Positions 1 through 39,881 of a stretch of 64,000 nucleotides of DNA are shown here, one piece after another; positions within the stretch are counted from its first letter, which is position 1, and each line of letters starts with the position of its first letter. The stretch is taken from assembly GCA_030581615.1 (NCBI GenBank), contig JAKTTT010000001.1, positions 1-64,000 on the forward strand, in the 5' to 3' direction. The notes under the pieces were generated by a model. It did no database searches. It saw nothing but the letters and a program-made list of their open reading frames with translations, and was not told the DNA's origin. The position numbers were made by a program, and so were the translations under genes. Source of the DNA: Alloascoidea africana (lineage: Eukaryota > Ascomycota > Alloascoideomycetes > Alloascoideales > Alloascoideaceae).

Positions 1-843
1 TGATATGGCCAGGCTTGCGACAGTTGTAGCAAATCACCTTTTTGTGTTTAAAGTAGTAAAGTTCTTCACCCGAAGTATCAGAGGAATCGAGAGTGTCATC
101 TGCAAAGCTCACATTACCGAGATGAGTACCCCCAATGGTGTGAAGGATAACCTCGACAAGGTAAAGGCTTTCAGCTACGATGACATCTTGTTCAAAATCA
201 ACTCCTTGGTTTCCGATGGCCTCATTCCGGATTTCAAAGTCGATTCTGCTGTGCCCACTATTGCCAATGTGAGCTTTGCAGATGACACTCTCGATTCCTC
301 TGATACTTCGGGTGAAGAACTTTACTACTTTAAACACAAAAAGGTGATTTGAGATGTCAAATTGACATAGATTGGTAGGGTAGAAGTTCACATCCGTAGC
401 TGTTTTAACCAGTTTATTCACGTCAATGGGAGAAGACTTGGTAGCTTTCACCAGAATGTCGCAGAGGAAGTCCAGAACAATCGGGAGGTAGTAGCCCTCC
501 TTATAACAAGGAACATTCTTTTCGGTATAGGACCTTTCGATGGTTGTGATAACCTTTGACTCAATGTCGTAGTCGAGATCAAAAGAAAAAATAATAGAGG
601 ACATATTGACTTGAAATGTATGAAAAGAGATCAAGAAAGGAAGATAAAATTGTATTGATAAATCTGTATAAAATGTAGTTATAAAAGTGGTAGGTAAGTC
701 GGATGGAGATCGAACCCAAGAAGTGGGAATCGACCTCCTTATATATTCTAGCCGTGGGCGGGTAAATTCCTTAAGCCCAGCACAACAATAAATTAGGGCT
801 CAGCCCATAAATGATTTGTCTTTCAAAAATGATTTGTCTTTCA
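1..843 (-). mobile_element. Ty1/copia remnant A: 5' LTR plus gag, running off the window edge
   Basis: Read on the minus strand, an LTR-like sequence (about 843 to 626) leads into a Gag-like reading frame starting near 604. The predicted Gag resembles the one at 5490-6302, and a CCHC zinc-knuckle-like motif (CYNC...GH) lies close to the window edge. The element is a broken fossil with several disruptions, including an internal inverted duplication, and its remainder is outside the window. Assignment to Ty1/copia rests on similarity to the copia pol pieces next to it. Age appears moderate: its LTR is clearly alignable to, but not identical with, the copy at 1565-1763. Confidence 0.75.
626..843 (-). 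repeat. LTR, copia family 1, copy 1
   Basis: This is about 218 bp that align along most of their length with 1565-1763. In LTR orientation it carries a TATA-like stretch (TAGAATATATAA) followed by a degenerate short inverted repeat. It lies directly upstream of a gag remnant in the same orientation, so it acts as the 5' LTR of that element. The ends are approximate. Confidence 0.7.
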
Positions 844-887
844 ATACTCTCGGATATCTAATTTGGATCACACTTTCATAATTCCAA

Positions 888-992
888 CAGCTGGACACAA
901 TGGCCTGTGGCGATTTATATTGGAGAGCTCCTTCCTTCTCTCCTTCTCTTCTTCTTCTTCTTCTTTTGTTTCGCTTCTGCTCTTGCCCGCTC
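888..992 (+). repeat. Duplicated piece of the Gal4-like gene's leader region
   Basis: About 105 bp match the region around 47713-47831, which lies upstream of the Gal4-like gene. The match starts just before the shared TGGCGAT(A/T)TATA TATA-like motif and runs through the CT-rich tract and the CTGCTCTTG motif. It ends at a GAGCG-type microhomology (about 987-992), where the sequence switches to TEF1 DNA in the opposite orientation. It contains no gene of its own. It forms one half of a chimeric duplication placed between two LTRs. Confidence 0.8.
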
Positions 993-1559
993 GGCCTTAA
1001 GATTGTGAAGAACTCGAGCGTACTTGAAGGAACCCTTTCCGAGCTCGGCAGCCTCCTTCTCAAACTTCTCGATGGTTCTCTTGTCAATACCACCGCACTT
1101 GTAGATCAAGTGGCCGGTGGTGGTAGATTTACCAGAGTCGATGTGCCCAATGACAACGACGTTGACGTGAGTCTTTTTTTTTCCCTATGGCAGAAGGTGG
1201 ATTAGCTTCAACGCCTTTTCAGATCAAGCCACGACAGCCAAAAGCATCTTCTGTGATGCAGTTTGGCTCCAGGACAATTGCAAAAAGCACAGGCAGATAC
1301 CATTGTGATTTATAGATGATTCTTCTTCCAAAAGTAAATAACTCAGGTGGAAATGCTAATGATTTCTGGTGTGAGTAGACAAAGAAAGGAAAAGAAGAAA
1401 AAATCAAGAGATCTCCAGGCAGAGGGTTTTTATATAGACTTCGTGGTGCCACCCAAAAGATTTGCCCTTGGCACACGATTACCCGGCGACAAGCTGCAAT
1501 TGGCGCTTCGCAAGAAAAAGAAATAGATGGGAGATTAAAATTTGAAGAACTGAAAAATA
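993..1559 (-). pseudogene. Partial TEF1 (EF-1alpha) duplicate: promoter, intron, 5' coding
   Basis: On the minus strand this stretch matches the TEF1 locus at about 36830-37410. It contains the promoter (TATA-like TTTATATA near 1430, TTACCCGG at 1479-1486), the ATG-only first exon, the intron after that ATG, and coding sequence for roughly the first 65-70 residues (the GHVDSGKS P-loop and the [16 protein letters not shown] stretch). It then switches to duplicated Gal4-leader DNA, so it cannot encode a full factor. Because intron and promoter are retained, it was copied as DNA rather than from a spliced mRNA. About 17 bp present upstream of TEF1 are missing here, near 1495. The high similarity of the coding part points to a fairly recent event. 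Confidence 0.92.
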
Positions 1560-1564
1560 TTAAA

Positions 1565-1763
1565 TGAGATCAAGAAAAGATATAAATTGTATTGGTAAAT
1601 ATGTATAAAATGTAGTGATAAAAAGTGGTAGATAAGAGGGATAGAGATCTAAACCAAGAAGTGGGAATCGACTTCTTTATATATTCTAGCTATTGGTGGG
1701 TAAATCCCCAATGGCCAGCCCAACAATAAATTAGGGCTTAGTTAACAAATGATATGTGTTTCA
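1565..1763 (-). repeat. LTR, copia family 1, copy 2
   Basis: This is about 199 bp matching 626-843. In LTR orientation a TATA-like TAGAATATATAAA is followed immediately by a 7-bp inverted repeat (AAGAAGT, 8-nt loop, ACTTCTT). It lies downstream of a copia RNase H remnant and a purine-rich tract, consistent with a 3' LTR. The ends are approximate. Confidence 0.75.
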
Positions 1764-2924
1764 ATACTCCTCCTCAAATCGACAATTAAAACCGATAAAG
1801 ACATCGTGGGGGCTGAAGAATATATCAATAAAAAAGGTTTGAATAGATGGTAAAAAAATAAATATTGATAAAGAATTGATAAGGAAATGATAACAAAATG
1901 ATAAAGAGAAAAAGAAGATTTATAAGATGATAATAAATGGTTAATAACTTGCAAGGATAATAGATGCATAAATTGGCCATTAACATAAAAATAGAGCAGT
2001 CAGGTTTTCAAAGACAACCGGACTGGGCTGTTTGGTAAGAGAGTCAGCGGGATTGTCTTGAGTTCGCATGAAACTTAATTTTATCTGTCTTTCCTTAACC
2101 AAGGTTCTAACAAAATGATAGCGAATGTTGATGTGCTTGGTTTTTTTGGTGCTGAAATTTGTGAGCAGCCAAGGTGGTTGCAGAGATATTATCTTCACAC
2201 AGGTAAATATAAGAAGATTCGAGGTCCATTTGGTCCATAGGATTCTTGAAGAATAGTGTAGATTTCGCACACTCCGAAAGAGCAACATATACAGACTTGG
2301 TTGGGCTCAAAGCCACAGATTTTTGCTTCTTAGAAGCCCAACTAATAAGATTGTTATTCGAGAATATTAGAAAACCCAATTGGCTTTTCCTATCTTGAAC
2401 ATCGCCAGCGTAATCGGCATCTGACACGGCCATGATTCGCTATTTTTTAGGTTTGGAATAGTCTTGGATGGACGCTTCCTTTGTCTTATCCACGTATCTG
2501 AAATCCTGGAAGTTTAGATGCGTGCTTGGATTTCGTGAGAACAAAATTCCTTTGTCCTTGGACTTCAACAGATAGTGAAGAACCCGAAAGGCAACCTTCA
2601 GATGGCAATTAGTAGGCTTGGCAAGGAATCGAGAGAGAAGGGAAGCGGCGAAACTAATGTCAGGCCGGATGATGTTGGCAACAATGTTCAAAATTTCAAT
2701 CACAGACTGGTATTTTTTGGTTTCCTTAACGTCCAAATCTCGGCTCGCAACATAGGGATCAAAACCAGAAGGAAAGGGGGTTCTGGGAGTGGATTGCGTT
2801 GTATTGAGGTGCTGATCTTGCTGAATTATGGTTAGAAAATCATGCAGGTTTAACTTGAATCCAGTATTATTCTTTTCGATGTTTATACCTAGAAATACTC
2901 TTGGTAATCCGAGATCCTTCAGTT
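1565..2924 (-). mobile_element. Ty1/copia remnant B: pol 3' part plus 3' LTR
   Basis: On the minus strand, 2918 to about 1980 encodes pieces of a copia reverse transcriptase C-terminus and RNase H. Recognisable parts are FLGINIE, the RPDISFA region, a SDADYAGD-like motif and a terminal NPADSLTKQ-like motif. A purine-rich tract near 1766-1778 precedes an LTR at 1763-1565. The element is a broken fossil with several disruptions; its upstream part is cut off where the second copia family's LTR begins at 2925. The family is the same as copy 1 at 626-843, judging from the LTR. Confidence 0.85.
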
Positions 2925-3134
2925 TGAATCAGTTAAATAAGAAAGCAGTAATCTTTATTGTAAGTGTAAGCACTAAAGATCTAAACTCAGAAGTACAAGT
3001 TTAGATCTTTTATATATTCTAAGAAAGAACTATATAAGACTGGCAAAAGCTATTTGGGCCAGTTTAAGGGTAAAGCCCTGAATAGAAGTCACGACATCGT
3101 GACAAATAATAATGTAATTTGTATAATATAAACA
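2925..3134 (-). repeat. LTR, copia family 2, copy 1
   Basis: This 210-bp sequence closely matches 6367-6576. It contains the palindrome TCACGACATCGTGA (3089-3102) and a perfect 13-bp inverted repeat (2975-2987 with 2998-3010) directly beside a TATATATTCTA motif. In LTR orientation it begins TGTTTATATT. Confidence 0.85.
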
Positions 3135-4205
3135 GAGAAGTACACATTATAATGTCAGAACTAGAGATTAGCGACATAACAGCAAGAGCTGCATTAAGCG
3201 CAACTCGAAAGAAGGATCGTGGAGAAAATACACAATTTAACGTCGGAAACGAAGTTTTGTCAGATCAGACCTTTTAAAGACATCTGGAGGTGTTTACAAT
3301 AGAGGACTAACTCGCTCGTTAAGAGGTAAATTTACTGGACCTTACACCATCACGGAAATACTTTCTCCTGTCAATTATAGGTTATAAATGCCTCCTTCCT
3401 CAAAGCGTCCGAACATCTTTCACATATCTCAGCTCAAACTCCGAAATCCTTTACCTGAAAACTACGATGGAGCGCTACCACCAAAGGACCCCCCACAAGT
3501 ATTCAAAAAGTATAAGGATGGCACTGAAGAAATGGAAATCGACAAGATCCTCAACCACAAAAAGATGAAAAGAGGCTATCGATTACAAGTACAGTTCAAA
3601 GATGGAACAAAACAGTGGTTCACAAAATCCGAACTGCTAAAATCCGCTTCCGATATTGTGCAAAGATATGGAAAATCGCACAATTTGGAATTTGCAAAAT
3701 AATTTTTTTTACGGCAATTTATCCAATTTTTGTTAAAATCTAACTTTTTGTTGTATTTCTTAAATATATATATATATATATATATTCAAATTATTTACTT
3801 TATTCTCTACTTCCTACTTTCGAATTTTATTTCACTTTATTCATTTATATTTCAAATTTTTTTTTCTTATGGAAACTTGGATATTTTTTAAAGGACTATT
3901 CACTTTACTATGTGTTAACACAGGGGGGGAATGTTACAAGGTTGTTGCTATAGGCAAGAGACTTTGAGTGATATAAAGATTACAAACTTCGTGTTATAAG
4001 GATGTTGCTATGTGCAAGAGACTTCGACACATACAATGATTACAAACTTTGACTCATACAAAGTCGCTTAGCTCACGCAGACTAGAACACAAAAGGAAAG
4101 GTTTAGTTGATAGTTACGAATATCTAAGGAAGACTTGTCCCCTTCTAGTGGGAAGGTCAAACTCATTTTAGACTGTCATTTGTACTTTAATTATACAAAC
4201 CAGAT
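3135..4205 (+). mobile_element. Ty3/gypsy remnant D: pol 3' end and 3' LTR
   Basis: On the plus strand, 3135-3702 encodes the C-terminal part of a gypsy-type integrase (GKFTGPYTITEIL-like and HISQLKLR-like motifs). This is followed by a chromodomain-like tail of about 55 residues (EMEIDKILNHKK through QWFTKSELLKSASD). A short (TA)n run lies near 3764-3784. A G-rich polypurine tract (3923-3930) precedes the LTR, which starts with TGTTAC at 3932 and runs to about 4205. Only the 3' end of the element is present; it is a broken fossil sitting inside copia element C in the opposite orientation. Confidence 0.8.
3932..4205 (+). repeat. Ty3/gypsy 3' LTR with two tandem ~60-bp units
   Basis: The LTR begins TGTTACAAGG after a run of G. 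Its first 120 bp are two imperfect direct repeats (about 3934-3991 and 3993-4051), each with GTTGCTAT, GCAAGAGACTT and GATTACAAACTT. The right end is not sharply defined. No second copy is present in the window. Confidence 0.6.
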
Positions 4206-6366
4206 TCTATTTCGAAGTAATATCATTCACATACAACAAATTGTGACTTGCTAATGTTAAGGAAGACATATTATCCCCGCAGATATCAATATAAGTTGAG
4301 GGCAGATTCAACTCTGGAAGCAAATTAAAGAAGAATAGAGTATTCTTTGAGCATTCCGAGATTCCATAATATTCTGATTCCGTTGTGGAAAGTGTCACAG
4401 ACTTCTGCTTTCTGAAGCTCCAGGAGTCCTCAAGAATGTTTGTCTGAAACTCGTTGTCGCTGTGCAAGGACACGATGCTCTTATCAGAAAGTTTCAGAAG
4501 GTTCCCCATTTTCTTTAGCAACTCCACAGTGGCTGCTGAGACTTTCCATTTGTGTTTGATAACCTTGGCCGTACAGAATTTGCTATGCCTGCCGGATACA
4601 ATCACTGCATAGGCATTGTTGATCGGACCGATCACGTCAGCTTGGATTAGTTCGCCAATTGTCCATTCTCTCTTTGAAGCTTTCGAACCATGATGTTTCT
4701 GAACCTGAGAAGCACAGGTATCGCAGTCGTCATTTGTAAGCTCCTTCAAGTCTTTGACGCTACAGTTCAACTCCGGATGGTTTTGTCTGACCACAGTTGC
4801 AGGAGCATGGCCAAGAGGAAAATGTTTCGCGAGGACATCGTAGACTTCTTTATTGATGTCTTTCGGGGTGATCGTCCAGAACTTACTGAATTTTGGACAA
4901 TTCAGTAGTTCTTTCCCCGTCGCCTTTTCCTCGACGCAAAGCATCTCATCATCCAACACAATGCGCATGCCCTGCGATGTCAAAAGGTCAGCCGAAATAA
5001 TATTTCGTCCTATCTCTTTCTTTACCTTGACCGATTTCAACTGCAAACTTCCGACGCTAAGATCACCTTCCAATAACGAGCTGGAAAGACTGTTAACCCC
5101 TTTTATAGATGTATAGGACTTCCTCACGTTCCTTAGCAGCGATTCGTCCTGCACTACATGGCAGATAGCGCCACTGTCCAAGATATATTTGACGTTGCTA
5201 ATCTCGGTCAAGTACACTTCATGGACTTCAGCGTTAGCGTCTTTGATCTCCTCCAAATAGTAACTTTCTTCAATGTCATTCCCAGTACCAGCAGAAGTCC
5301 CAGTAACAGGCATGTAATCATCAGCGAACCAGACCACAGCATCCTTTGGAGCTTCAACGTACTGAACTTCCACTTTCTTTTGAATTTTTGGAGCAGAATT
5401 CTTGGCTTCTTCGTGCTTGTGTAAGGGACAGCACTTGAAGCCATGACCTAGTCGACGACATTTATGGCCGCAAACTTTTGCCAATCAATTTAAAGAACCT
5501 CATCGTTAGCTTGATCCTCCAGAAGGTTGATGGATTCAGAGTCAGAAGTAGAAGCAATAGACTTAGCAACAGAACCAGTGATTATTTTCCCAGAAACTTG
5601 TTTGTTGATAAAGTTAATAAGTAACTTGTAGTTTGTCCCTTTTAGTTTGTTGATTTCTTCTGCCGAGTCACCAAGCATGCCCTTTCTAGTTAGGACAGAG
5701 TCCATCTGAATGTTGGAAAGGTTGAAAAGAGGTATGTAGGAGAAGTAAGGTTGCAATTCGGGAAAGTAGAACTCCATCACCAACATGTTATCTTGAAAGT
5801 TCTCGATATTAGTTCCATGTTGTGCCGTAGTAGACCAGAAGTTTTGTAAGAGGTTGACTCGAGCAATGTTGTTGATTAAAAAGAATTCTTCTTTCAATTT
5901 GAAGAAGAGCTCCACGCCGTAGAAGTCTGAGAATGTTTCTAAGAGTTTGCCGGTAAATCTTAATTCAATCAAGTAATTGATGAGTTGGTTGAGATTGGAT
6001 GGAAATTGAGAGTTATCAACGTATGTGCAATCCTTGATGAATACATGAATGTCAAAATCACTTGATGAAATCAAATTTCTCAAGATTTTGAGAATCCAGA
6101 AAAGGAATACCGGAAGAAGGTACCCTTCTGATAATTTTCTAGGCTTAGTAGCCTCAACAGTAATTTTAGTAGATTTTACTACTTGTTCAGTGATGTCAAA
6201 ATCTTCACGGATGTAATACACCTCTTGGCTTTGAGGGTCAGGAACATTAGGAGCGGTAGGAGCAGCAGGAGCAGCAGGAGCAGCATTGTTTCCGTCTTCC
6301 ATTTCCGATGTAAAAACGTCTTAAAAAAATTATATTTGGAAAAAGAAAAACGATAAGAGATTGACT

Positions 6367-6576
6367 TGAAATCTGTTAAACAAGAAAGCAGTAATGTTTA
6401 TTGTAAGCGTAAGTACTAAAGATCTAAACTCAGACGTACGAGTTTAGATCTTTATATATTCTAAGAAAGAACTATATAAGACTGGCAAAAGCTATTTGGG
6501 CCAGTTTAAGGGTAAAGCCCTGGATAAAAGTCACGACATCGTGATTGATAATAATGTAATTTGTATAATATAAACA
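6367..6576 (-). repeat. LTR, copia family 2, copy 2
   Basis: This 210-bp sequence matches 2925-3134 and lies immediately upstream of the Gag frame at 5490-6302, making it the 5' LTR. It shows the same palindrome (6531-6544) and the same perfect 13-bp inverted repeat (6418-6430 with 6441-6453). The loop sequence differs between the two LTR copies while the arms are unchanged. Confidence 0.85.
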
Positions 6577-7560
6577 CAGTACCGATTCCCGATGCGCTCT
6601 GGTTAGTCGTGTATACGGATCTCATTTCTGGTTTGCCACGCACTACTTCCGCCGAAGTACAATGCCAGGGACATCCGGAACCTAACAATCTATACTCTCT
6701 AGCTATAAACTAATCCCGTCTATATCATCTGCTATTCTGATTCTACCGACCGGGTTTAGTATCTTATGATTGATGTTCGATTGAATAGTTTGAGTTTAGT
6801 CCTTAGCTATGGTCAGCTAAGGGATTGTTGAGTTTGATGGTTTGTGGGAAATGCTCGTTCAACGGCAAGCGATCTAGAAGAGGCGTCATGAGCACACCGT
6901 AGACCATTCCCGATTCTCGTAAGATTCTTAAAAGATATCAAAAGTGGAGCATAGTGTCAATATCTGTATGATCATTAAGTATGTTTTGAAGTGATATGAG
7001 CTTGGAAACGCCGATTTAAGTGTCCTCTTTTGTTCGTCAAACGCTCTCATTGTCTGGACTTGGCTTGTTTTAAAGTTAGACATACAAGCTAACAGGGTTG
7101 CGATTTCTTGATGGAAAATAAAAAAGAAAAAGAAGAAAAAGACTATAAACTATGTCGCCGTTGAAAAGGTATTCGTTCTTCAACTGAGATCGTTTATTGC
7201 TTCAAGAATAGGTCTCCATTGTGCAAGGTAAAAGGTGTACCCGTTTTGGTCGACTTTACTGGAAATGAGCTCTTAAAAAATTCAGTAGCATGTTTTTTCG
7301 TCTTTTTTTCTCTTTAAAACGGATTTTTACCATGTTGTGTGGCCACTGTGTAGTTGAGAAGTTCTGGTTACTCCTTAACTATGGGGCGAAGTTGGTGGAT
7401 GCTTCTTAACTATGTGTTTTCAACATATTTTGTCATGGATACCTCTTAACTATGGTTGTGGGTGACCATGTGACTGAAGATTACCTAATGAGTCCATGGA
7501 GACTTGTGGTGGTGTTGGAGCAATGGAAGTTCAACCGCGTAACTGAGATGGAAACGACAG
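6577..7560. promoter_or_regulatory. Intergenic: retroelement edge to DCC1
   Basis: I see no convincing coding sequence. An 11-12 bp motif, (C/T)CTTAACTATG(G/T), occurs three times just upstream of DCC1 at 7373-7384, 7404-7415 and 7444-7455, spaced about 30-40 bp. A related CTTAGCTATGG occurs near 6802. Its function is unknown. Confidence 0.4.
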
Positions 7561-8795
7561 ATGGACGTGTATCTATCGCAAGAGCCTCAACCAGGCTATC
7601 ATCTAGTAAGACTTGATCCAGAAATCGCGAGTTTCGCAAAGGGTGATAAAATATCCATCAAGTCTTCTTCAAGAGGAGGTAACGCAGTACTATGTAGTGA
7701 AACCAGTACTTACCAGCTGCGACAAGTCCAACACTCCAACACCCTACTATTAATGAAAATGACCAAAAGAGATACTGCCTACGCATTTTCCGAGATAAAA
7801 TTTTTATTAGAATGTGCTCAGGTTAAAAATCCAGTTCTGGATATCATCAAAGATGGGTCATTGCCGATATTACAAGAGATTGGGGGTGGCGATGAAGAAG
7901 GTCTTCTGAATTCTCCCAGCGTTGATGAATTGAAGAGTAATTGTGGTGTTTCGGATGCTCAATTTGAACAGATTTGGGCAAGCCAAGGAGGATGCGAGAT
8001 TAATGGTATGTTTGATCTACACAATGTTGGGTTCCAGGAACGACGTAAACTAACAAAGTCTTAAATAGGCCATTCGTGTCTATTATCACAGGATATTATT
8101 ACTCAAGCTCTGACAGAAGTGATATTGGCAGCTTCAATGAGAAACGCTGAAGAAGATGACAAGTTTTCAAACCTAGAAGTCCAAGAACTTGCACAGGTTC
8201 TAGATAGTGATGGTCATTCTCCAGTTATCATCGAGACGACTTTAAAACTATTTTCTAATTCAATCACATCTCGTATGAGCCATTTTGAGGTTAAAGAGGA
8301 AGTATGCATTTAGCAACGATATCTAACGGAGTTAACTTGATTTTTCTGTTTATAGCTTTTCAAATAAACAAGGAGAAAGTCACTAAGTATTATGGCCTTC
8401 AAGCATTGAAAAACTTGGTAAGTTGAATACACATGTCTACTGTTTCGTTTTCTAACATAAGCCAGTCGTCGTCAATTCTTCAAAGCGAATTTCTGCAGCT
8501 TTGGAGACGCCAAATTCCAGCCGTATTTCCATCCAAACCGGATATAACACTATTACGAGGTCATTACTCACAGCCTACACCGGGGAAATTGCATTATTTA
8601 CCAAAGTCAGATTTGCCTACCGATCCTGTGTCTAGATTCGGCGAGCTGTTCAAAGCGCAGTCAACTTGGGATTTGGATGATCTTGTTCCATATATTAAGG
8701 ATCTGAATACCAGAAATATCAAAATGGAGAGCTTTATCATAAAGTATGCCAGGAAGAAAAAGATGGGTGACAAGACAATCGTTACGGCTAGATAA
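7561..8795 (+). CDS. DCC1: Dcc1, Ctf18-RFC subunit (sister-chromatid cohesion)
   Basis: Dcc1 pairs with Ctf8 in the alternative clamp loader Ctf18-RFC, which acts on PCNA at replication forks and supports cohesion in the nucleus. My exons are 7561-8005, 8069-8301, 8373-8417 and 8466-8795, giving about 350 residues, close to yeast (380) and human (393) Dcc1. The N-terminal region (KGDKISIK, AVLCSETSTY, SNTLLL) and the C-terminal winged-helix region (KPDITLLRGHY, LWRRQIPAVFPS, DLDDLVPYIKDLNT, terminal KTIVTAR) follow the family. Exon 3 is odd. The best-looking acceptor (TATAG ending at 8355) would put a stop in frame, while an AG at 8371-8372 keeps the frame and gives EKVTKYYGLQALKNL. The gene converges on PET8 with 80 bp between stops. 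Confidence 0.88.
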
Positions 8796-8875
8796 ATATT
8801 TACACATCGATAAATGGATAATACACATCTATACTTTTCATTTTCCAGTTTTTTACATTCCCATCCGCTCCCTTT

Positions 8876-9843
8876 TCATTTGGTTAAACTTGTCAGTGAT
8901 TGTGATACAAACTCGTAAACACCAAGGAATATGGAGCCTCCAGCGCTCATCCACATTGTTCTAGGACCTATGCCTCGCCAAAAGGCCCGTGCGCCTTCCT
9001 CTTTGATGATCTGCTTGACTAATGCCTTCACAGATATCTGGTTCCCATGAAGCATTTTTCGAGTCTTTATCACATCAAGAGGTGTTGTTACTGCTGCCGC
9101 AAAGCCGCCAGCCAATGAACCACAAATTGCACCCTGTCCAGGTGTTGCAATCTTTTCGCCAGAACGTATAGCCGCCTCTCTTTTCAAGTATTCGTATATG
9201 GGGTACTGTATTACTGTGAAGGGGATCTCCCGCATTATAGTAATGGCCCATCCTCTATACAGACCTCTGAGAGCACCTTCGCCACTTTCATTATTGAGAA
9301 TTGACAAAAGAGCAGCCCGAGATGAGGGATGCTTCATGGCTTGGGCTCTTTGCTTCACTACCTCTGCGGGAACTCGGATAAAACAAGCAGCAATCTCTCC
9401 TAAAGAGGCGCTAGCCATATGGTTCAAAGAGTCGTTGAGCTGGGCATTTGCCGTTATTTGTGAGGTATATGGCTTTAGTATAGACTTGGCCGAATCATAC
9501 GTCGCGAAGAAAAAGGCAGCTTGAAAAATTCAGTTCTCATTAAAATCCAGATCGAAGACAGCTAGTGAAAACAAAGGATATATACCACTAGGTGCTGATG
9601 CGACTGTTATACTGCCGAGTCCTCGGTAGATACCCTTCCAGCCACCATTTTTCCATATTCCACCTTTGGCTTGTACCCTGGTTTTGATAGTATCAATGGG
9701 GAAGAAAGCCACATCTGTTGAGGTTCCGGCGCAGGCACCACTCTAAAGCTCCCTTTTTGTCAATAAGTTAATACTTGAATGCAAGGGAGCACAGGTGAAC
9801 ATACTATAAGCGCCGTGAAGAAAACGCTAGACTCAACAAGCAT
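8876..9843 (-). CDS. PET8: Mitochondrial S-adenosylmethionine carrier (Pet8/Sam5)
   Basis: This inner-membrane carrier imports S-adenosylmethionine into the mitochondrial matrix in exchange for S-adenosylhomocysteine. Minus-strand exons are 9805-9843 (13 codons from the ATG), 9586-9742 and 8876-9519, giving 279 residues, the usual length. All three mitochondrial-carrier signatures are present: PIDTIKTR (from residue 28), PAEVVKQR (about 115) and PLDVIKTR (about 210). The N-terminal SGACAGTSTDVAFF and YRGLGSITVASAPS stretches are those of Pet8-type carriers rather than generic ones. Introns have GTATGT/GTATAT donors and lengths of 62 and 66 nt. It converges on DCC1. Confidence 0.93.
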
Positions 9844-10717
9844 TTGGCTTTCGTCTGGAGGAGTGCTTTTTAGTATATGGGCCTCGGTGAAAAGACGGAC
9901 AGGAAAGAAAGCCTTTCTCCGGGTTACAAAAACCGCTCGCAGAGGGCCAAACTCCGGCGAAAAGCTGACTGGACAAAAATGCTCCGGTGGATCTACATTA
10001 CTGCCTCTTCTACTCGTTGAAAGTGTACTATGTGCAATAATCGAGGACTCAACTTGATGCAATTCATTCTACACGGACCTACACAAACGTTCAAAGACAC
10101 ACGACTATTTCTATTGGTAACAGACAATATGTAGAAAACCACGACCATTACAGTACCATTTGATCGGTAAAGCAATGTATTCTCAAAACGGTTTACACGA
10201 CCGGTAATTAACCAAAGCACCCTGGTCTTGGTAAAGTTTAAGCGGGGCAAGGCCAATATACCTGCTTCGTCTTCTCCTTTTCAGGAACCCAAGTATCAAT
10301 TGAATTGTACTGAAGTTGGGGCAGATGAGGAGTTTCACGATGGGAAAAGCAAATATAAATGAAAATAACGGGCCAAAGTTTATTCTTGACTATATCTTAT
10401 GAGGTTATGGTATGTGGTTGATAAGAGTAAGGAAGAGAAGTGAAAAAAACTGGTGTTTATTCAAAAAGGGGCACAGTAGAGACCGGTACATGTTTTACAC
10501 ATGTTTTACACATGCTTCTAGATGCAAATCGTATTCAACAGTCCCATCTATTTTTTGTGGGACATTTACTTATCCAAAGAGTACGCATCTATGGTAGCGA
10601 CATTGCTATTAGTTCCAAATGATATAAGATATTATAGCTAAGTCGCTCATACATATACTGTATAGTTTAGCACTCTGGGGACCATAGAGATAACAGCAGT
10701 TTGCGCATATCAACAGA
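9844..10717. other. Intergenic between PET8 and FPR1
   Basis: I see no gene or conserved RNA. The stretch holds the PET8 upstream region and the FPR1 downstream region. Short open frames (for example 10412-10597) have no recognisable features, and their composition looks non-coding. Confidence 0.5.
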
Positions 10718-11186
10718 TCAATTGATTGACAGCAGCTCAACTTCGAACTATATAAAACGAAAACACGTTAGTGGACAAGCTCTTCAATAGAAATATCAGA
10801 AATTCAAACATACAATGAGAGTGGCATTTGGCGGGATAAGGCCCGGTAACCCTCGGTCACCATAAGCAAAGTCTCCCGTTATAGCCAATTTTGCTTTTTC
10901 TCCCAAAGAAAGCTTGGGAACTCCTTCATCCCAGCCCTTAATGACGTTGCCAACCCCAATTGTAGTCTGAAATGGACTGCCACGGCCACGTGAAGAATCG
11001 AACACAGTCCCGTCTTCAAGAGTGCCAACGTAGTGGATGGTCACATTGTCTCTTGGCTTCGGGAAAGTTTTGCCATCGCCTGAGCACAAGCACGACAGAC
11101 AGCCGATTATTAGTTTCGAGGGTTTACAAGGAAGACTAAAACAAAGACAGCGAACCTGAAGAGATGGTAGTAATCGTCACGCCCAT
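10718..11186 (-). CDS. FPR1: FKBP12-type peptidyl-prolyl isomerase
   Basis: This is a cytosolic and nuclear prolyl cis-trans isomerase and the receptor for FK506 and rapamycin. Minus-strand exons are 11156-11186, 10814-11079 and 10718-10747, giving 108 residues, exactly FKBP12 length. The protein starts [19 protein letters not shown] and shows the family hallmarks: [56 protein letters not shown]. The first donor (GTTCGC) is unusual, but phase and family alignment both demand it. The last exon is only 30 nt. A Reb1-like TTACCCGG lies at 11256-11263, 70 bp upstream of the ATG. Confidence 0.95.
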
Positions 11187-11601
11187 TGCACTCAACTGGG
11201 AGAGAAAGAGACCGCAACCTCTTGGAAAAGAGTGACATCATCTTAGTCGAGCGGGTTACCCGGTGCCGGCGCTGTGCTTTTCAGATCCTCAAAGTTGTGG
11301 TTAGGAACGAATTAAGTTGAGTCTGGCACTAGGTAACAGATTCTTTTCTGGTCTCGTTTCTAAGAATTAGTTTTAAGCAAATTGTTGTCGAGTAGATCAA
11401 TGTCTGGACTGCACGGCACTTATCTAGAGGAATACGAAGTGTGTCAATCACTCAGCACATGCTGAAAAACTCGCGGTACTAATAAAGTGATCATCGCTGT
11501 TGCAACAACTAGAGAAGAGAGAAAATACATTTTAATCGCTATAGTTCAGTTTTTACAATTCGCCGGACCTATTTCAAACGCAAACAGAAGCAGTTTCCCA
11601 T
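11187..11601. promoter_or_regulatory. FPR1 promoter region
   Basis: TTACCCGG (11256-11263) matches the core of a Reb1-type general regulatory factor site. No coding sequence is seen. The proximal part also contains GC-rich flanks (GGTGCCGGCGC). Confidence 0.5.
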
Positions 11602-12655
11602 TTAGATCTTCCACTCGGGCTTTCTCTTTTCCACAAAAGCAGACATGCCTTCCTTCTGATCCGAGGTTCCAAACAGCGAATGGAAAACAGTTCTCTCGTA
11701 CTTCAATCCATTGTCCAACTCAAGTTGTTCTGCTTGGTTAACACATTCCTTTGCTTTCTTAACGGAGATTCTACCGAATGATGCAATTTGGGACGCAAGC
11801 TTCACAGACTCTGGAACGACTTGATCAGCTGGATAAACTCTAGAAACCAATCCCCATCTGTCTGCTTCTTGAGCAGTAAACTTGCGGCCAGAGAGAATGT
11901 ATTCCATTGCGCGAGACTTGCCAATGGCGCGGATTAAGCGCTGTGTGCCTCCAGCTCCTGGAATAATCCCTAAGGTGATTTCAGGCTGTCCAAAGACAGC
12001 TTTCTCTCCAGCGTAAATGACGTCGCAACTAGTAGAGCGATTTTAGTTAGAATCGGCAGACATATCCCATGTTGAAAATTGTCTATACCAACCTCATTGC
12101 AAGCTCACAACCACCTCCAAGCTACACTGTCGTGTTAGAACCAATTGCTAGGTATCCACAAGCTTACATTCGTAAATTTACTCACAGCAAACCCATTAAC
12201 GGCTGCAATAATGGGCTTGGGGAACTCGACAATTTTGCTCCATGATTTGATGAAATCCCTGTTCAAGACGTCTTCCACCGAAAGAGACTGCATCTCCTTG
12301 ATATCAGCGCCAGCTATGAGAAAGGTGAGTATTATAACGTCGACATGACCGGGATGTGTCCCCACTCACCAGCAAAAGCCTTCTCGCTTCCGGTCAACAC
12401 AACCGCGCCAACCTCTTTGTCCTCTTTCAATGTGAGCAAAGTCGCGTTCAACTCATCGATGAGGGGCGTGCAAAGAGCGTTGTAGGCTTTAGGGCGGTTG
12501 AGAGTGATCAGGGCAACGCCAGTCTCGGGATTTGATACCTTGAGGTATTCCAGGTCAGGAAAAGACGAGATCATTCGGAATTGTGACAGATAGTTCACTC
12601 GAGGAGCTCTCAAGCGCAAAGCAGGGAGAGTTGATCTGGGAATAAGAGAAAACAT
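11602..12655 (-). CDS. Mitochondrial enoyl-CoA hydratase (ECHS1-type)
   Basis: The enzyme hydrates trans-2-enoyl-CoA to L-3-hydroxyacyl-CoA in beta-oxidation or branched-chain amino-acid breakdown. Minus-strand exons are 12370-12655, 12186-12313, 12093-12121 (29 nt) and 11602-12028, giving 289 residues, the length of animal ECHS1 (290). The N-terminus ([19 protein letters not shown]) is Arg-rich and lacks acidic residues, as in a matrix-targeting presequence. The crotonase core shows [12 protein letters not shown] (oxyanion-hole region), [15 protein letters not shown] and [19 protein letters not shown], so both catalytic glutamates of the family (in CELAM and QPEITLG) are present. Classical budding yeasts lack this mitochondrial form; filamentous fungi and some early-diverging yeasts keep it. 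Confidence 0.92.
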
Positions 12656-13049
12656 CGGGGGCTTTTGGTGCTGTACGGTTCCAATTCGGGGGGTGCAGTC
12701 TAGGAGGGGGTCTAATGCTGGAGGAGTGGAAGCTGGACGAGAAGAGGAATTTCGTGCGGTTTAGTACTGATGGCCGTGGAGGCTCCCCACACGTCCAGCT
12801 CCTCCTTTCCTCCTCACCGCCCTCCGCGAGCCGAGAAGATTCAGCTCGCCGGGCCCAAAACGAGACAATCGCTCTATGGCAGCAACTACGAATTCGAGCT
12901 GCTTCCGACCTCCACCGATGGCCGCGATGAGTAGCCACTAGGCGGTCCGTTACGTGCAAATAGGAGGAATTAAAATAAGAACAGTCAAATCACATCTCAT
13001 AAATACTAGATTACAGGGCAGCGAGGAGGCCCTAGGACAATCCTGGCTC
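12656..13049. other. Intergenic: enoyl-CoA hydratase promoter / permease 3' end
   Basis: This is about 390 bp, relatively GC-rich in the half nearest the hydratase gene. I see no gene. Open frames across it are shadows of the GC-rich composition. Confidence 0.4.
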
Positions 13050-14801
13050 TTAGCACCAGTATCTATACCAGCGGTAGTAGAACGGCCGGCTCTGGATCAT
13101 GGCTTTTTCGTCTGCAAGCTCTTCTCTGAGGAGATCCAAGTCAAACTCCCTCCGTCCCAAGTCAATGTCTATGTCTTCCACCTTGACATACAACTGGAAG
13201 TTTTTCTTGTAGATCTTGTAGCCCAGCCAGCAAATAATAATCACTGGCGCTGCTAAATATGCTTTGAAAAACGAAGCGGCATCTGCCTTGTTGGAGCCTA
13301 GCGGGAAAAGGGCAACCCAAAACTGAACCACCAGCACCAAAATGTTGATCGCCAGCCCATATACCGAGCCTATCGTGCCGGATTGAGATACAAATGCTAG
13401 CTCGTCTAGTCCTCTTCCTCTGTAGTAAAGTGTGTATCGGAATCGCAAATGGGCTGCGCAGATTGAACCCCATGTTGCGATAAAGGATAAACCTGTCAAA
13501 GCAACAAGCCAATTGAACACCTCGCCCGCTTGCTCAGAAGCCGAAACAAAACACATCATTCCGAACATCAAATTGACCATAACCGCAACTAACGGCCGCC
13601 CTCTATTATCGATGTAGGCAAACAGTTTAGGCGCCTGGCCTTGTAGGCCCAGAGCAGCCAGTGTTCTGGAGCCAGCGTAAACGGCTGAGTTGGCAACAGA
13701 TAGAACAGATATGAGAATGCAGACATTCATCACCGTGCTGAGTCCAGTTATTCCTGCTGTTTTGGTGGCGATGATGAAGGGACTCGTACTGGAGTCATAA
13801 TTGCTGCTTCCTGCTAGCAACTGAGGATGATCGTAAGGAATAATCAGCCCGACAACAAATAGTCCAAGGATGTAAAACAGTGTGATTCTCCAGAAAATCT
13901 GCTTCGTTGCCCGTGGTATAATTCTACGGGGATTCTCTGATTCAGAAGATGCCAAACCAACGATCTCAGTCCCTCCAAAAGCAAACGACGCAAGCACAAA
14001 AACAGAGCAAACACCTTTGAAACCATTCGAAAATGCTCCTGGATCTTTCCAGTACTTTACCCCTATAAATTGACCTTTCGGACCACCCCCACAGTCAATA
14101 ACAATTCCTAGTATGATGAACCCAACAACGGCAATCACTTTCAACGTGGAAAATATAAACTCTGTTTCGCCATATCCCCTTACCCCGAATAAATTAAGAA
14201 AGACAATTAAAAGGTAAAAGACTGCCACAAGAATCACTGGGTTAAACTTTGGGTTCCAGTACTCAATAATAATTCCGGATGCCACCAACTCCAATGGGAG
14301 TAATGTACACCAGCCCATAGCGTAGTTCCAGCCCATAGCAAATCCCCAGGACGGGTCCAGAAATCTTGTTGAGAAAGCGGAAGCACCGCCAGACACTGGG
14401 AATGCCACTGCTAATTCTCCAAGAGCGTGTACCGTACAGAAAATCATGGATCCAATTAGTATCCAGGCGATCAAAAGACCAGCTGGACCGCCATTTGAAA
14501 GAGCATTGCCTGACCCAATAAAGAAGCCAGTTCCGATGCAGCTTCCTAGTGATATCATCTGAAGGTGACGGCCCTTTAGACACCGATTAAGGGGGACATT
14601 GGTTGTGGCAATAATGGCTCTCTCCAGCTCTGGTAAATCTGGATCTGGTTCTTCAAATTCAACTCTTCTGAAGGAATCTTTAAATTCCTGCCATCTATTG
14701 ACCACCTTATTCTCATGTTGATAATAAAATGAATCGCTGTCTACATTTTCCGATTGATATGACTGTCTTTCTGGATCTTTTGCAATACGTTGGTTGAGCA
14801 T
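13050..14801 (-). CDS. Amino-acid permease (YAT/Gap1 family)
   Basis: This is a plasma-membrane proton/amino-acid symporter of the APC superfamily, fungal YAT subfamily. It is a single exon of 583 residues, a typical length. A hydrophilic cytosolic N-terminus of about 90 residues leads into the signature LNRCLKGRHLQMISLGSCIG, then GTGFFIGSGNALSNGGPAG. About 12 membrane segments follow, including AFAFGGTEIVGLASSESENP and VANSAVYAGSRTLAALG, both conserved in substrate-binding helices. The C-terminal tail ends with YRWYRYWC, typical of the family. Substrate range cannot be told from sequence. About 3.7 kb of apparently empty DNA lies upstream, compatible with a long regulatory region. Confidence 0.93.
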   Translation of the reverse strand: MLNQRIAKDPERQSYQSENVDSDSFYYQHENKVVNRWQEFKDSFRRVEFEEPDPDLPELERAIIATTNVPLNRCLKGRHLQMISLGSCIGTGFFIGSGNALSNGGPAGLLIAWILIGSMIFCTVHALGELAVAFPVSGGASAFSTRFLDPSWGFAMGWNYAMGWCTLLPLELVASGIIIEYWNPKFNPVILVAVFYLLIVFLNLFGVRGYGETEFIFSTLKVIAVVGFIILGIVIDCGGGPKGQFIGVKYWKDPGAFSNGFKGVCSVFVLASFAFGGTEIVGLASSESENPRRIIPRATKQIFWRITLFYILGLFVVGLIIPYDHPQLLAGSSNYDSSTSPFIIATKTAGITGLSTVMNVCILISVLSVANSAVYAGSRTLAALGLQGQAPKLFAYIDNRGRPLVAVMVNLMFGMMCFVSASEQAGEVFNWLVALTGLSFIATWGSICAAHLRFRYTLYYRGRGLDELAFVSQSGTIGSVYGLAINILVLVVQFWVALFPLGSNKADAASFFKAYLAAPVIIICWLGYKIYKKNFQLYVKVEDIDIDLGRREFDLDLLREELADEKAMIQSRPFYYRWYRYWC

Positions 14802-17800
14802 AGTTTGCTGAAAAATCTGATAATAAAGGAGCGACTATAAAGACACACTTGTTCCCACAAGATGAAGTGGAAATTCTAAAGTCAGGTTTTTGAAAGATTT
14901 TGACATTGCGACTGATATAAATAAAAGGGTGGGGAATATGCTTTTAAAAAATTATTGCTTTCTTGATATGCATTAATATCTGTAAGATATCTGCAAGATA
15001 AAATACAACGAACACTACGCAGACTTCCAAACTTTTCTAGCCGCGTTCTCATCAAGGTACTTGGTTATCTGAAAGTGATTAAGCACAAGACATTAAAAAT
15101 ATGTTTCTATTTTTGTTTTTTTTCTTCATCTTTTCAATTACACACAGACCTATATTATGACGGGATTGGCACTTTAATGAACCTGAGAAGTGTATTCCAC
15201 CGTTATGGGCATATATCAGCTAACATTTATTAAACGAAGCCTTGTAAGCACATTTGAGCTGGAAACAGACTATAAACGTATTTTTATCCTCCTTGAGCTA
15301 ATCAATCTGGAAAACAATTTGTTCTGTAGGAAAGTTGCAGCAGCCTGAGATATCATTGTTGGGAAAGATAATTGAGATAGAAACAGGGATGACGCTTTTA
15401 TGAAAGATAATAGTTGTTGCCTATCAGAATCGTTGTTCACAATTCATAAGGCTAACATCCTCTCTGCTTTTTGGCTCAACTTCTACTATCATTTCAAGTT
15501 TTCTCAAGGAGAAGCAAGGAAAAAGATTCGCATGAAAAAGGTTTGAATCACAATCCTGCTTATCAGATCTTGAGCCCAATTTTTAATACAGTAACTCCAG
15601 TAAAGATTATAAGCAGATATCCTGTTGAGTTTTAAACTGGAAATCCATGAACTTAGGGCATCTGCAGCTTCGAGTATAAGGCTCGTTTAGAATTCCCTTT
15701 TTTGCAGCAAAAAAGAAGCAATCTGGTTCGAAAAACTCAGCTTGTTTAGTTGAATATGAAGGGCACACAGCATTATCTATCTAAATCGTATGTCAAGAAT
15801 TTGACAAGTGCATTATCGCTCCGAATGAGAAGTTTATACCCAGAAACCGCCTACTTTCCGCTGCATAGTCATCTGGAGACACATTTATCTTCCCTTCAGT
15901 GTAGAACATTATTAACCAAATGCTTCTATAAAACTTGAACTTTTAAGTCCCATAATTGGTTTGATCTGCTTATTCAGTAAGTGCTATGTTACAAGTGGTA
16001 ACAGTGAGAATCTTGATCTAGAGTAGCAGCTTAAATAAATATTGGAATATAACCCCAAATTGCAATGTCCTTCGGGAATAAACCAAACCGTGAAAAGATC
16101 TATACAGGATAATCATGACACAACGGTCTCGGCATGTATCTCAACTTTTGAAACAAGCTTCAAGTGAAAATATGGACTTGGTACCTCAGCTTACATGCAA
16201 GCTGACAGGGCCCCGGGATGTCCTGGCGCATGATGACCATTCGAGAAGTTAGCGCACTCTATACCTCTTTCCAAGACAAGGCGGCTAAAATGTAATGTCG
16301 ATTTGGCAGTAATTGGTGCTTCACTGCAGGTATTCACCCAGTCAATGCCAGATTATACGTATCTGTCCGTATCTATCGACTTATGCAACCAGCTGCAGTT
16401 TAGATTTCATGGCAAAGCTTGCTCCTTGGCCCCTTCTAAAGTGTATTACAGGAACCTACAGTATGGTTCAAGTAAAAGAAATACTTTTTGGTTCGGCGTT
16501 TTGGCGTTTTGAACCATTTCCACCACTCCCGTGTGTTTAGCCCCGCCTGTACTTCATGAAGTATTATAAAAACTAGTTTAGGATGTAGTGAGATTAATGT
16601 GACCCTCCTTTGTGACTGTGTAGAAGCCAGAAAAATATCCTCCTTCAATCTGTCAAAATGGATGCTGTCAAAATGCATAAAACAAAAAAAAAATCCATTT
16701 GTCCTGTCTTCAATCGATGAGATTTTCCTTCGCCTGGAAATCTGTCTCAGTTTTCTTTGTAGTACTTCATCAAATTCTAATATGTAAAAGTGAGAATGTT
16801 TTCTCAACTCTTTCAATTATGTATTTTTCTTTGGTCAAATCAGCAGCTTACTTTTCCTACGCTCTAATACTTAGCTGTCCCAATTTGAACCCTAGAACAT
16901 AAACTCGTCAACCGAGAAATCTACAATCTTACAATTTTGGTTTACGGAACATTCCACCCCTCGTCTTTGTTGCTGCGTTTTGAAGGTAGTTGTACTTGAA
17001 AATGCCACCTTTCTTCACTTACACCTTTTTCGCTTTTTCTCTGAAATGTTAAGATTATTATTGCTCGATGCCTTTCGGCAATAAGGCTAATATTGCGCCA
17101 AAGAGCCCATAAATGCCTACTGTTTCACCTCTTTTGTGTATATTTTGACTGGCCGCTATTTACTGGGAGCTTTTACTTTAAAGACTTGATCATTCAAGTT
17201 CAAAGTGCATATTGATCTACTCTGTGGCACTTTTTACGCTTACTATGAGAAGACATATTGAGAATATGATCAAGAATGGAAGCAATACTATTGTGCGTTC
17301 TCATTTTAGTTGCTGTGTTGTGTTAATCTTGAGCTAATTTATTATTCTCTTGGGAATAGTTACACAACAAAAGAAAAATACCAATCTCGCTATGTCCTAA
17401 AATCCATTAGACTATCTTTCATAATCTATCCAAAACTAAAAGTGTGGATGAACAAGTGGAGTGGTGGTGGGTTGGGAGAAAAGGAGTAAAAACTTGTAAA
17501 TCTGTTTTTGAATGCGTACTTGGTAAGTTGTTGACCGCCGTGGTTTTTCTTTCCTGATAGAGATCGTCTTGTCTTTTCGAAAGGTATACAACGTTTGAAT
17601 TTGACACGAAAGCTACCAACTGATGAACCAACTACAACTATTGAGAATATTATTTGATCTGATATAGATCTTATCTCATCACAGAATTCACGCTACACTT
17701 ACAACTTTTACGTAGCCCTAACAGAGTATGAAGTTTTGCTTGTACATCTTTTATCAAAATTAAGTTTTGACCTCAGAACATGATTCTCTGCCAAAGGAAA

Positions 17801-18523
17801 CAACTCAAACCTGATGCACGAACAGCAAGTCAAATACTGATTTATCTGAACTGACAGCTGTATACTTTATTACAAGAGTTTTCATGCCAAGTGCTCACAA
17901 TTGGTCAATGAGAAAAATCAACATCTCTGTGGAATGTATGAGCGAGGAAATATCGTGAGATAAAGGTTATTGTTATCGATTTACAACATTCAAACTTGTT
18001 CTTTTACCATCTAGTGAATACATGCTCTATTTATGTGAAGCTATGTTGTGAGGCGATACGAGGTCGCATATGCGAGACCAAGTAAAACCACGAAGAAACG
18101 AATGTAGCAGTTATATGGGGTAGTTTGCATGGTTTTGGATTAATGCGTTATCATCCAGATACTACAATCTCAAGTTTACACAATTATAGACAAAATCTCA
18201 AAATACCAAGGAAAAAGTGCCAAGAAATGCACTTGGAGAGAATTGCTTAATGTAGCACATAGCTATACTCACAATCCTGATATTGACGGGCTTATTTGCA
18301 TTCTTTTTCGCTGCGGGAAACAAAGCCCAACTTCTGGTGTGCTTGAAGCCCAACCTTACTGACTTTAAGCATACTGATTCTCCATGACTATATCATTAAT
18401 TGCAAACATATTCTTATTACCTGATGAATTTAAATACGTTTTTTTAGTAGTACAACTCGTTATGCTTTTTTGATGCTAGTAATAGGAAAAAGCATTAATT
18501 GATAAGCAATGATCTATTACCCT
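14802..18523. other. 3.7 kb AT-rich stretch without a recognisable gene
   Basis: This region lies between the permease start and the CENP-H 3' end. It is AT-rich, and only short unsupported open frames occur (for example 16303-16512 on plus, 16436-16816 on minus). I found no tRNA-like B box, snRNA motif or LTR remnant by eye. It may be the permease's upstream regulatory region, or hold a non-coding RNA that I cannot detect. Confidence 0.4.
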
Positions 18524-19632
18524 CTATCCCGCAGACTTTGATAATGAAATTGCAGCTGCCTCTAAAAATTCATCATCCCCAGTTTCTCCTCCATCCAAAC
18601 AGAACAAAACAATCTCCCGTAGCTTTGGGTCGTCAACCCAATCAAGCCCGGAAGCAACAACCATGGCCTATTACACGTTAGTCGCATACACAAACACAAG
18701 AAAATCTATGACTACACTTACTGATGTCAATTCCTTTAAAATTTTGGTTTGAAGAATGTTCACTTCATGTTTGCTTTTAAGACATTAGTTGCGAACCATG
18801 CCTTAAATCATGTATAAGCACATACTCTTTTAATGATTTCAAATTGTTTAATTCTGTTTCCTTTTTATTGCCAATTTTGCTTTGCTTGATTTTGGTCGTG
18901 TGGATCTGCTTCATCAATTCAGTCGCGATCTCCTTATTTGCTTTAATCATTGCCGAATTCTGCTGCTGTAAAACCGTGACCTCTTTGTACTTGCTTCGCA
19001 ATTCGCCTTGGTCCAACCTAAGCAGCTTAGATCCCAGTTCATCACGAAGCTGTAATGATTGTAATAGAGAACTGAAAATACGTTAGACCAGATAGAAAAT
19101 GGCACAACACATTGGGACCACCTACTTTTCTCTTGTCGTTGCACCTTTCCTCTGATAAACAGATTTCAGGACAGAAGTTGTTGCCATCGTTCTACAACAC
19201 ATTGTTAAAATACACATGAACACCCATAATCATGCTCAAAAAGACTGACGTTTCAAAGGCAAGATTCCGTGTTTCGAATAGATGGTCCATGTATTGGATC
19301 AAGTTTTCCATATCTTTTGATTCGTCTTCGTCGTTTAGGCCTTCATTTTCCGTACTGGTTGTCAAATCGTGCAACTTGTACGCTGAATTTGTTTCTTTCA
19401 CCTTTCCATAGTCCCAATCAACGTTCGCATTGGCCGTTTGATCTACAATAGTCAAGTTCTTTGCACGGTCGTTCATTTCTCTAAAGTCTTCAAGGTAGCT
19501 TTGCTCCAGCTTCAGCAGCCCGCTGGCAACCGAGCTCGTGGGAACTTTTGGAATGCCAAACTTGTGTTCCAAAAACTCCTTATTGGTAAGAAACTGACGG
19601 CATTGTGCCTTTAAGTCTCCGTTGTTATCCAT
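18524..19632 (-). CDS. MCM16: CENP-H / Mcm16 / Fta3, inner kinetochore subunit
   Basis: CENP-H is a subunit of the constitutive centromere-associated network (Ctf19 complex in budding yeast, Sim4 in fission yeast). Five minus-strand exons join in frame: 19250-19632, 19126-19191, 18826-19071, 18722-18773 and 18524-18667, giving 296 residues. The middle is a long coiled coil (LRDELGSKLLRLDQGELRSKY through NKKETELNNLKSLK). The C-terminal SGLDWVDDPKLREIVL matches the terminal motif of vertebrate CENP-H (SRVNWAEDPALKEIVL), which is the basis of the call. An in-frame ATG at 19677 would add 15 residues; I prefer 19632. A TCACGTG (Cbf1-type E-box) lies at 19683-19689 and a Reb1-like CCGGGTAA at 19712-19719. 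Confidence 0.8.
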
Positions 19633-20381
19633 GGCCGGGGGAATATCGAGATGGAGGAGCTTAAATGGTGAACGCAAACAGAGTCACGTGTGATGGAAGG
19701 TGAAAATTTGGCCGGGTAACGCTGTTATTATGCATGCGAAACAGCTCATCATCTGGTGAAAAACAGCCTGTCATATTGTGGATTTACCATTCTTAGGGTA
19801 GAGGCTTAAAACCAGCCGAGTTAATTCAATACTTAGAGTTGGACGGCTGGTTTTTGGGACCATTTATGAGTGTTTCAGGTCAGTACTGCCAGTACTACTT
19901 GTGAACTACCCTGACAGCCTCAACAATCTTGTAGTTTGCTAAAGAAAACCCGAATGTATTCATGTGCCCCTTTCGTAACCGTCTTCAGCTACTATCGCAT
20001 TCGAGTAGCCAGTATAGATCATGCGATAAGCATCAATGTTTATTGCACACTACTCTGGGCGAAGGAAAAGGGACATCAAAAATTCAAATAGGCCCATAGC
20101 GGTAAAAGCAGGCAACATATCTTGATCTAAAGAAAACTCGTAACTGCTATCTGCTCATCTTATTTCCACCTACCGGGCTGCTAGATCGGAGAGAACACAG
20201 AGTGCTAGCCTGGCGGTGCGGAATAGAAATGGAACCGATACCAGCAGGTTGAAGGCTTGGAAACAAACTTTAGATTGACTCCATAGTGGAGTGCCAGACA
20301 CCCTCTTATGCCCCATTGGACACTTGTTCTTTCCGTTGCTTCCTCTTGCCTCTCTGCTAACCAGACCAGCCTATCCACACA
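19633..20381. promoter_or_regulatory. Divergent promoter region CENP-H / ERD2
   Basis: About 750 bp separate two divergent genes. CENP-H-proximal TCACGTG (19683-19689) and CCGGGTAA (19712-19719) are likely general regulatory sites. No coding sequence is evident. Nothing obvious marks the ERD2-proximal half. Confidence 0.5.
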
Positions 20382-21017
20382 ATGAATATCTTCCGATTAG
20401 TGGGCGATCTGGCACACCTGGTCAGCATCTTCATTCTGTTAGAAAAGATCCGCAAATCCAAGTCTTCGGCTGGCTTGTCTCTGAAAACCCAAATCCTTTA
20501 CACTATAGTCTTCGTTACGCGGTATCTGGACCTCGTTCTAAAATGGATCAATCTTTACCTCTTTTTAATGAAAATTCTATACATTTCATCTTCAGTCTAC
20601 ATCTTGTATCTCTTAACTTACAAGTACAAACCACCGAAAGGAAATGTTGACACATTTAAAATCGAGTATTTGCTTGGCGGCTCGTTTATCCTCGCGCTAA
20701 TCACCACAACGGATTACAGCTTTATCGAGGTAGCTTGGTCATTCAGCATATGGCTGGAAGCTGTTGCAATTCTCCCTCAACTTTTCATCCTCCGGCGCCT
20801 TGGAGAAGCCGAGACAATTACTACACACTACATCTTTGCTCTAGGTGTCTACCGGGCATTGTATATTCCCAATTGGATTTATAGATGGGCTATTGGGGAT
20901 AAAACGTTGTGGTTTCCTGTATTTGCAGGCATTATACAGACGGCGATCTATTCCGATTTCTTTTACATCTACTACACCAAGGTGATGAAAGGAGAGAAGT
21001 TTGAGCTACCTCAGTAG
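20382..21017 (+). CDS. ERD2: Erd2, HDEL/KDEL receptor
   Basis: Erd2 is a seven-TM Golgi protein that captures soluble ER residents bearing HDEL/KDEL tails and returns them to the ER in COPI vesicles. It is a single exon of 211 residues, the usual length. The start MNIFRLVGDLAHLVSIFILL is the conserved N-terminus. Other hallmarks are SKSSAGLSLKTQILY, VFVTRYLDL, the PQLFILRRLGEAETITTHYIFALG block and YRALYIPNWIYRW near the end. It converges on PRE7 with 64 bp between stops. Confidence 0.96.
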   Translation: MNIFRLVGDLAHLVSIFILLEKIRKSKSSAGLSLKTQILYTIVFVTRYLDLVLKWINLYLFLMKILYISSSVYILYLLTYKYKPPKGNVDTFKIEYLLGGSFILALITTTDYSFIEVAWSFSIWLEAVAILPQLFILRRLGEAETITTHYIFALGVYRALYIPNWIYRWAIGDKTLWFPVFAGIIQTAIYSDFFYIYYTKVMKGEKFELPQ

Positions 21018-21081
21018 GCTGAAAAACCAACAGTTCTATCTTTAATCGCGATTTATTGTAACACATGTTGCGTGAACGAGT

Positions 21082-21957: not shown

Positions 21958-22020
21958 AACTGCGGTTTGAGTTTGCCTATTCAGTTATTGTCAGAGGGTG
22001 GGAGCGATGGAGCAGTGGCA

Positions 22021-39838: not shown

Positions 39839-39881
<43 letters not shown>

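Follow-up and report, generated by a model that had tools for sequence, protein, structure and literature searches.

We describe here a piece of copied host DNA (positions 890-1557) close to the start of contig C1, which is probably what remains of the place where a duplicated 11.0-kb segment was joined head to tail, later trimmed by LTR elements. The event is of a type that is already known, and the locus is a further example of it.

The sequence studied, below called the window, comprises bases 1-64,000 of contig C1 (1,244,482 bases), and the assembly searched counts 23,180,953 bases (23.18 Mb) in 138 contigs. Two BLASTN queries with agreeing results were used: positions 1-3000 against the 64-kb window, and positions 840-1570, with simple repeats and very common words skipped, against the whole assembly. 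The genes of the window look fungal, among them one coding for an EF1A protein and one with a Fungal_trans domain. Best PDB matches of the EF1A protein are the elongation factor 1-alpha entries 1f60 and 5o8w, both from yeast. Features of the locus and of both donors are given in Table 1.

Table 1. Positions in the window of the copied pieces, their donors and the surrounding retroelement sequences.
Feature	Position	Strand	Remark
gag-like fragment, copia-type family 1, left copy	1-603	-	very start of C1; ORF 2-634
Family-1 copia-type LTR, left copy	619-843	-	5' LTR position relative to the gag-like fragment; limits from alignment with assembly copies
LTR2, end (without the rest) of an LTR-like repeat from a different family	847-889	+	stops where the leader copy begins
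Leader copy (upstream of the transcription-factor gene)	890-992	+	donor about 47715-47821 (or to 47831)
Junction microhomology	988-992		CGCTC on +, GAGCG on -; common to both donors
TEF1 (EF1A) 5' copy	988-1557	-	promoter, 5' UTR, ATG, intron, about 67 codons; donor 36820-37410
Family-1 copia LTR, right copy	1558-1763	-	3' LTR; start accurate to a few bases
Right family-1 copia element, 3' internal part	1764-2928	-	reverse transcriptase end; RNase H by eye
Second copia-like element (family 3)	2927-6579	-	two LTRs 93% alike; interrupts the family-1 element at 2927
Donor 1, EF1A gene (TEF1)	35643-37410	-	intron directly after ATG; from translation and PDB matches
Donor 2, DNA upstream of the Fungal_trans-domain gene (ORF 48978-51206)	47712-47831	+	

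Within the window, positions 988-1558 match 36820-37410 in 544 of 591 columns (92%, E 0) and positions 887-992 match 47712-47821 in 95 of 110 (86%, E 2e-32), both in plus/plus orientation. An earlier note on this DNA, made from the letters of the window, had claimed copied DNA at 888-1559, and matches to both donors in the window as well as in the assembly bear it out. Its statement that the copy stands in opposite orientation to its donor is wrong, since both pieces are plus/plus; the two donor genes are transcribed in opposite directions, but this does not concern the orientation of the copied DNA. Short and in part CT-rich, the leader match has two possible right ends in the donor, 47821 and 47831, owing to a repeated unit of about 10 bases. 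The frame of the TEF1 copy gives a GTP_EFTU Pfam match (E 4e-13). With the intron kept and the promoter present, copying took place at the level of DNA, as had been proposed, and a processed retrocopy is ruled out.

Across the assembly, the query 840-1570 gave 11 matches: the query itself, the two donors, two EF1A paralogues matching in the exon only (C20, 92% over 199 bp; C19, 78% over 169 bp) and, at the left edge of the query, a repeat of about 43 bp in six copies. The query 35500-48500 gave five, namely the two copied pieces, the two EF1A paralogues and one 43-bp match (88%); apart from this last one, no further copy of 37411-47711 was found in the assembly by this search.

The copied pieces overlap by the five bases at 988-992, so that the join at a GAGCG microhomology, proposed earlier, is confirmed. 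When 200,000 breakpoint pairs were drawn at random from the window, at least five bases were shared in 0.57% of them. Both donors are the right and left ends of one 11.0-kb interval, from 36820 to 47821/47831, and in the copy 47712-47821 is followed by 36820-37410, that is, the end of the interval is joined to its start on the same strand. The earlier note had recognised two donors, but missed that they are the ends of a single 11-kb interval, arranged head to tail. The probability that a second donor chosen at random lies within 11 kb and on the same strand is about 5e-4 in 23.18 Mb, a figure that is weakened because the donors could be noticed only inside the window; given that both are in the window, the same strand and such an order are estimated to arise by chance in about 1 case of 4. 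End-to-start order of one interval points to circularisation, tandem duplication or a backward template switch, and two unrelated captures would not predict it.

On the reading that we prefer, CGCTC is where the ends of the segment 36820-47821/47831 would have been joined, an extrachromosomal circle or an equivalent end-to-start re-copying being the most likely way. DNA spanning the junction would then have reached the region near the end of the same contig, presumably by integration. Later, LTR retroelements would have inserted on both sides, LTR2 in the leader and the family-1 copia element in the promoter part, and the remainder of the duplicate would have been lost. Of the proposed 11 kb only 0.67 kb remains, and the junction is flanked by LTRs, not by the rest of the interval in permuted order. 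Both outer edges of the piece are LTR ends; because no integration breakpoint survives, a circle, a tandem duplication and template switching are not separable. Microhomology at the breakpoint, a feature of tandem duplication and of MMBIR or MMIR, is present as CGCTC. A duplicate adjoining its donor, the tandem form, is not what we observe, as the copy lies 35 kb from 36820 with genes between.

The edges of the piece were located to within a few bases. On the left, the leader match begins at the end of LTR2 (889/890), three bases being common to both. On the right, the TEF1 match stops at the start of the family-1 LTR (1557/1558, within a few bases); other copies of this LTR align from about 1558, most BLAST matches starting at 1556 to a few bases inward. 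For the family-1 LTRs, limits of about 619-843 and 1558-1763 are better than the 626-843 and 1565-1763 given before. The earlier description of a piece lying exactly between two copia LTRs holds for the presence of copia-type LTRs on both sides and for the right edge, but fails at the left edge, where LTR2 (847-889) and bases 844-846 intervene. The LTR2 end was found at six other places of the assembly (three on C44, one on C123 and two on C31), followed in each case by other DNA; both places on C31 have a common flank and count as one, and one of them ends with AAAA instead of AACA. Neither LTR2 nor a clean insertion accounts for bases 844-846, and the same three bases adjoin the right LTR.

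Between the left and right family-1 LTRs, identity is 83% over 217 columns, and each copy has its best LTR-only match at a different place in the assembly, the left one on C31 (89%) and the right one on C46 (88%). For these two reasons the LTRs are taken as presumably separate insertions. In their arrangement one is the 3' LTR of one element and the other the 5' LTR of another element, which puts the piece outside both. Transduction of host sequence inside a single LTR element was considered and is out on the same grounds: the identity of the LTRs, their different best matches and the position of the piece. As both edges of the host DNA are LTR ends, insertion of retroelements into a duplicate that was once longer is the simplest explanation, these later insertions having probably trimmed it. 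At the outer end of the left family-1 LTR (808-843) there is an 18-base tandem duplication (17/18 alike). It was seen in none of the other aligned copies reaching that end, in a check that left out three opposite-orientation copies and in which row L018 is the window's own left copy.

The fragment at the very start of the contig is called gag-like because its frame gives a zinc knuckle match (E 0.0079, below the Pfam cut-off) and it adjoins the LTR. It contains an exact 86-bp inverted repeat (30-115 and 266-351), which may be a fold-back artefact of the assembly or else a genuine inverted duplication. The right family-1 element gives an RVT_2 match (E 3.4e-5, below the curated Pfam cut-off) and no Pfam match for RNase H. 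For the family-3 element a weak Pol_BBD Pfam match was obtained (E 0.031), and no matching target-site duplication was seen by eye in its flanks. Its open frame, judged by eye, runs from protease/integrase-like into RNase-H-like sequence, which would suggest that the element carries an internal deletion. No family-1 sequence was found to the right of it when the window up to 9000 was compared with stretches of C44, C123, C31, C20 and C19; together with the missing target-site duplication this makes ectopic recombination between elements at the family-3 site possible. Outside the window, 8 of the 12 listed family-1 LTR places, some of them partial, lie within 3 kb of a contig end, which fits a subtelomere, or simply assembly breaks in repeats.

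Further repeats and relatives were noted along the window. Comparison of 6600-20600, 20600-35500 and 48500-63000 with the assembly gave dispersed repeats and apparent gene-family paralogues. Positions 6689-7527, directly left of a Dcc1-like gene, are a dispersed repeat with many other places (best matches 82-87% over several hundred bases, and up to 95% over 126 bp). Another dispersed repeat, at 17927-18175, has partial matches of 70-89% at 16 places, and a repeat of about 256 bp at 28704-28960, perhaps a solo LTR, has more than 20 other places with 78-93% identity. Neighbouring genes at 55100-62990 have co-linear relatives on C67 (66-72% identity), a pattern that would suggest an old segmental duplication.

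The copy has decayed. Over 993-1558 the TEF1 copy carries 27 substitutions in 566 aligned bases and gaps of 17 and 3 bases, and the leader copy carries 11 in 104. In the TEF1 copy the substitutions are distributed as 7/194 in exon 2, 4/113 in the intron with the ATG, 4/132 in the UTR with the core promoter and 12/126 in the distal promoter, the borders of the latter two being set by us. A flat single rate over all pieces fits poorly (p 0.02), while a model picked after the data were seen, in which the copy decays equally throughout and the donor, constrained in exon, intron and core promoter, decays just in its distal promoter and in the leader, fits well (chi2 1.47, p 0.83), so that one age fits both copied pieces. 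The identity of the leader is lower than that of the TEF1 piece by a Fisher test (p 0.037) that was run with 11/106 and 27/560, the aligned counts being 11/104 and 27/566. Two different ages for the two pieces were nevertheless rejected, as the leader (11/104) does not differ from the distal promoter (12/126; Fisher p 0.83). Substitutions cluster at the ends of the TEF1 copy (16/164 vs 11/401, Fisher p 0.0008, with cut points chosen after looking), and its longest substitution-free stretch is 126 (permutation p 0.027). As constraint on the donor can also explain this pattern, we make no claim of gene conversion by TEF1 in the central part of the copy.

All seven exon-2 substitutions are private to the copy; at each of these sites the C20 paralogue agrees with TEF1, which means that the changes arose in the copy. 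One is synonymous and six alter five codons, including a change of tryptophan to arginine in a stretch common to TEF1, C20 and C19. The copy is without 17 bp of the promoter, through either a loss on its own side or a gain on that of the donor, and its intron starts with GTATCT where TEF1 has GTATGT, so that the +5 base of the intron donor site is changed. Judged from these changes the copy looks like an old, unconstrained fragment, with the reservation that 194 exon bases are few.

The earlier suggestion that a second TEF1 promoter had been placed in the genome is right in that promoter DNA was copied, but it is overstated, because the copy is altered (17 bp missing, the +5 intron base changed, the frame cut off and altered) and because two further EF1A-like genes, on C20 and C19, exist in the assembly. 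That the chimera is a young gene, with a predicted protein of about 90 residues expressed from the copied TEF1 promoter, ATG and intron, we find scarcely credible. Such a protein would combine the nucleotide-binding start of EF1A, with GHIDSGKST kept, and a lysine/arginine-rich tail encoded by the antisense strand of the CT-rich leader.

Other routes to the same arrangement must be weighed against the duplicated and trimmed segment. A backward template switch without any circle (MMBIR, or yeast MMIR) during repair of a broken chromosome arm is rather unlikely: a fork or broken end in the leader would have jumped back 11 kb at CGCTC and continued through the start of TEF1, which yields the same head-to-tail junction with microhomology, and both donors and the recipient are indeed on one contig. 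According to PMC2518615, segmental duplications in budding yeast can also arise through switching between microhomologous sequences. By itself, however, such a switch leaves unexplained the 35 kb, with genes between, that separate the copy from the donor, and no further switch points remain.

Capture of retroelement cDNA and of distant DNA at breaks is known in yeast. Short templated insertions are the subject of PMC11724301. The earlier note had proposed patch repair of a break, in which retroelement DNA and two host segments were captured together; we weigh it here as repair of a double-strand break that took up two unrelated fragments along with retroelement cDNA. Copying of DNA and the microhomology junction stand from this proposal, retroelement DNA does flank both sides, and a captured full-length cDNA could also give exact ends. 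Nevertheless we regard joint capture as improbable, because the donors lie on one strand and in the order expected of a single interval, host DNA ends at LTR ends on both sides, and the different family of the left LTR2 together with the 83% identity between the two family-1 LTRs favours separate insertions. Donor reads misjoined by the assembler at a contig end might also be considered, as only 0.9 kb separates the piece from the beginning of C1, where positions 30-351 hold an exact 86-bp inverted repeat. Misjoined reads would be identical to the donors, whereas the copy differs from them (27/566 and 11/104) and has exon changes of its own; an artefact is therefore very improbable.

Duplication of a segment through joined ends has several described counterparts. 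Galeote et al. 2011 (PMC3053389) report circle-made duplications of region B in wine yeasts, a 17-kb segment occurring in eight forms, and Takahashi and Innan 2020 (PMC7188851) propose eccDNA-mediated duplication for the human genome. The likeness is that parts of one interval are found elsewhere in the order of a cut circle; the difference is that here 0.67 kb round the junction is left, at one place and with no integration breakpoint, and a circle and an ARS are hypothetical. Demeke et al. 2015 (PMC4352087) describe an S. cerevisiae circle formed without repeats, probably at an 8-nt microhomology, and followed by chromosomal integration. The joining of segment ends at a microhomology is alike (8 nt there, 5 here), but the case in that work is a selected laboratory amplification leading to tandem arrays, while our fragment is old and shows no signs of selection. 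Payen et al. 2008 (PMC2518615) present segmental duplications in yeast that arise by replication induced by microhomology or microsatellites. In both cases part of a gene has become fused, at a microhomology junction, to foreign sequence; that study concerns fresh duplications in laboratory strains, whereas the duplicate described here is nearly gone.

Taken alone, the locus is one decayed fragment and does not imply a functional role. It suggests that a segment which was circularised or re-copied can leave a recognisable scar long after it has been almost entirely lost, the signature of the scar being a pair of short fragments that stem from one interval and stand head to tail. Counting such pairs near retroelement-rich contig ends would give a tally of old circle or template-switch events in fungal genomes.
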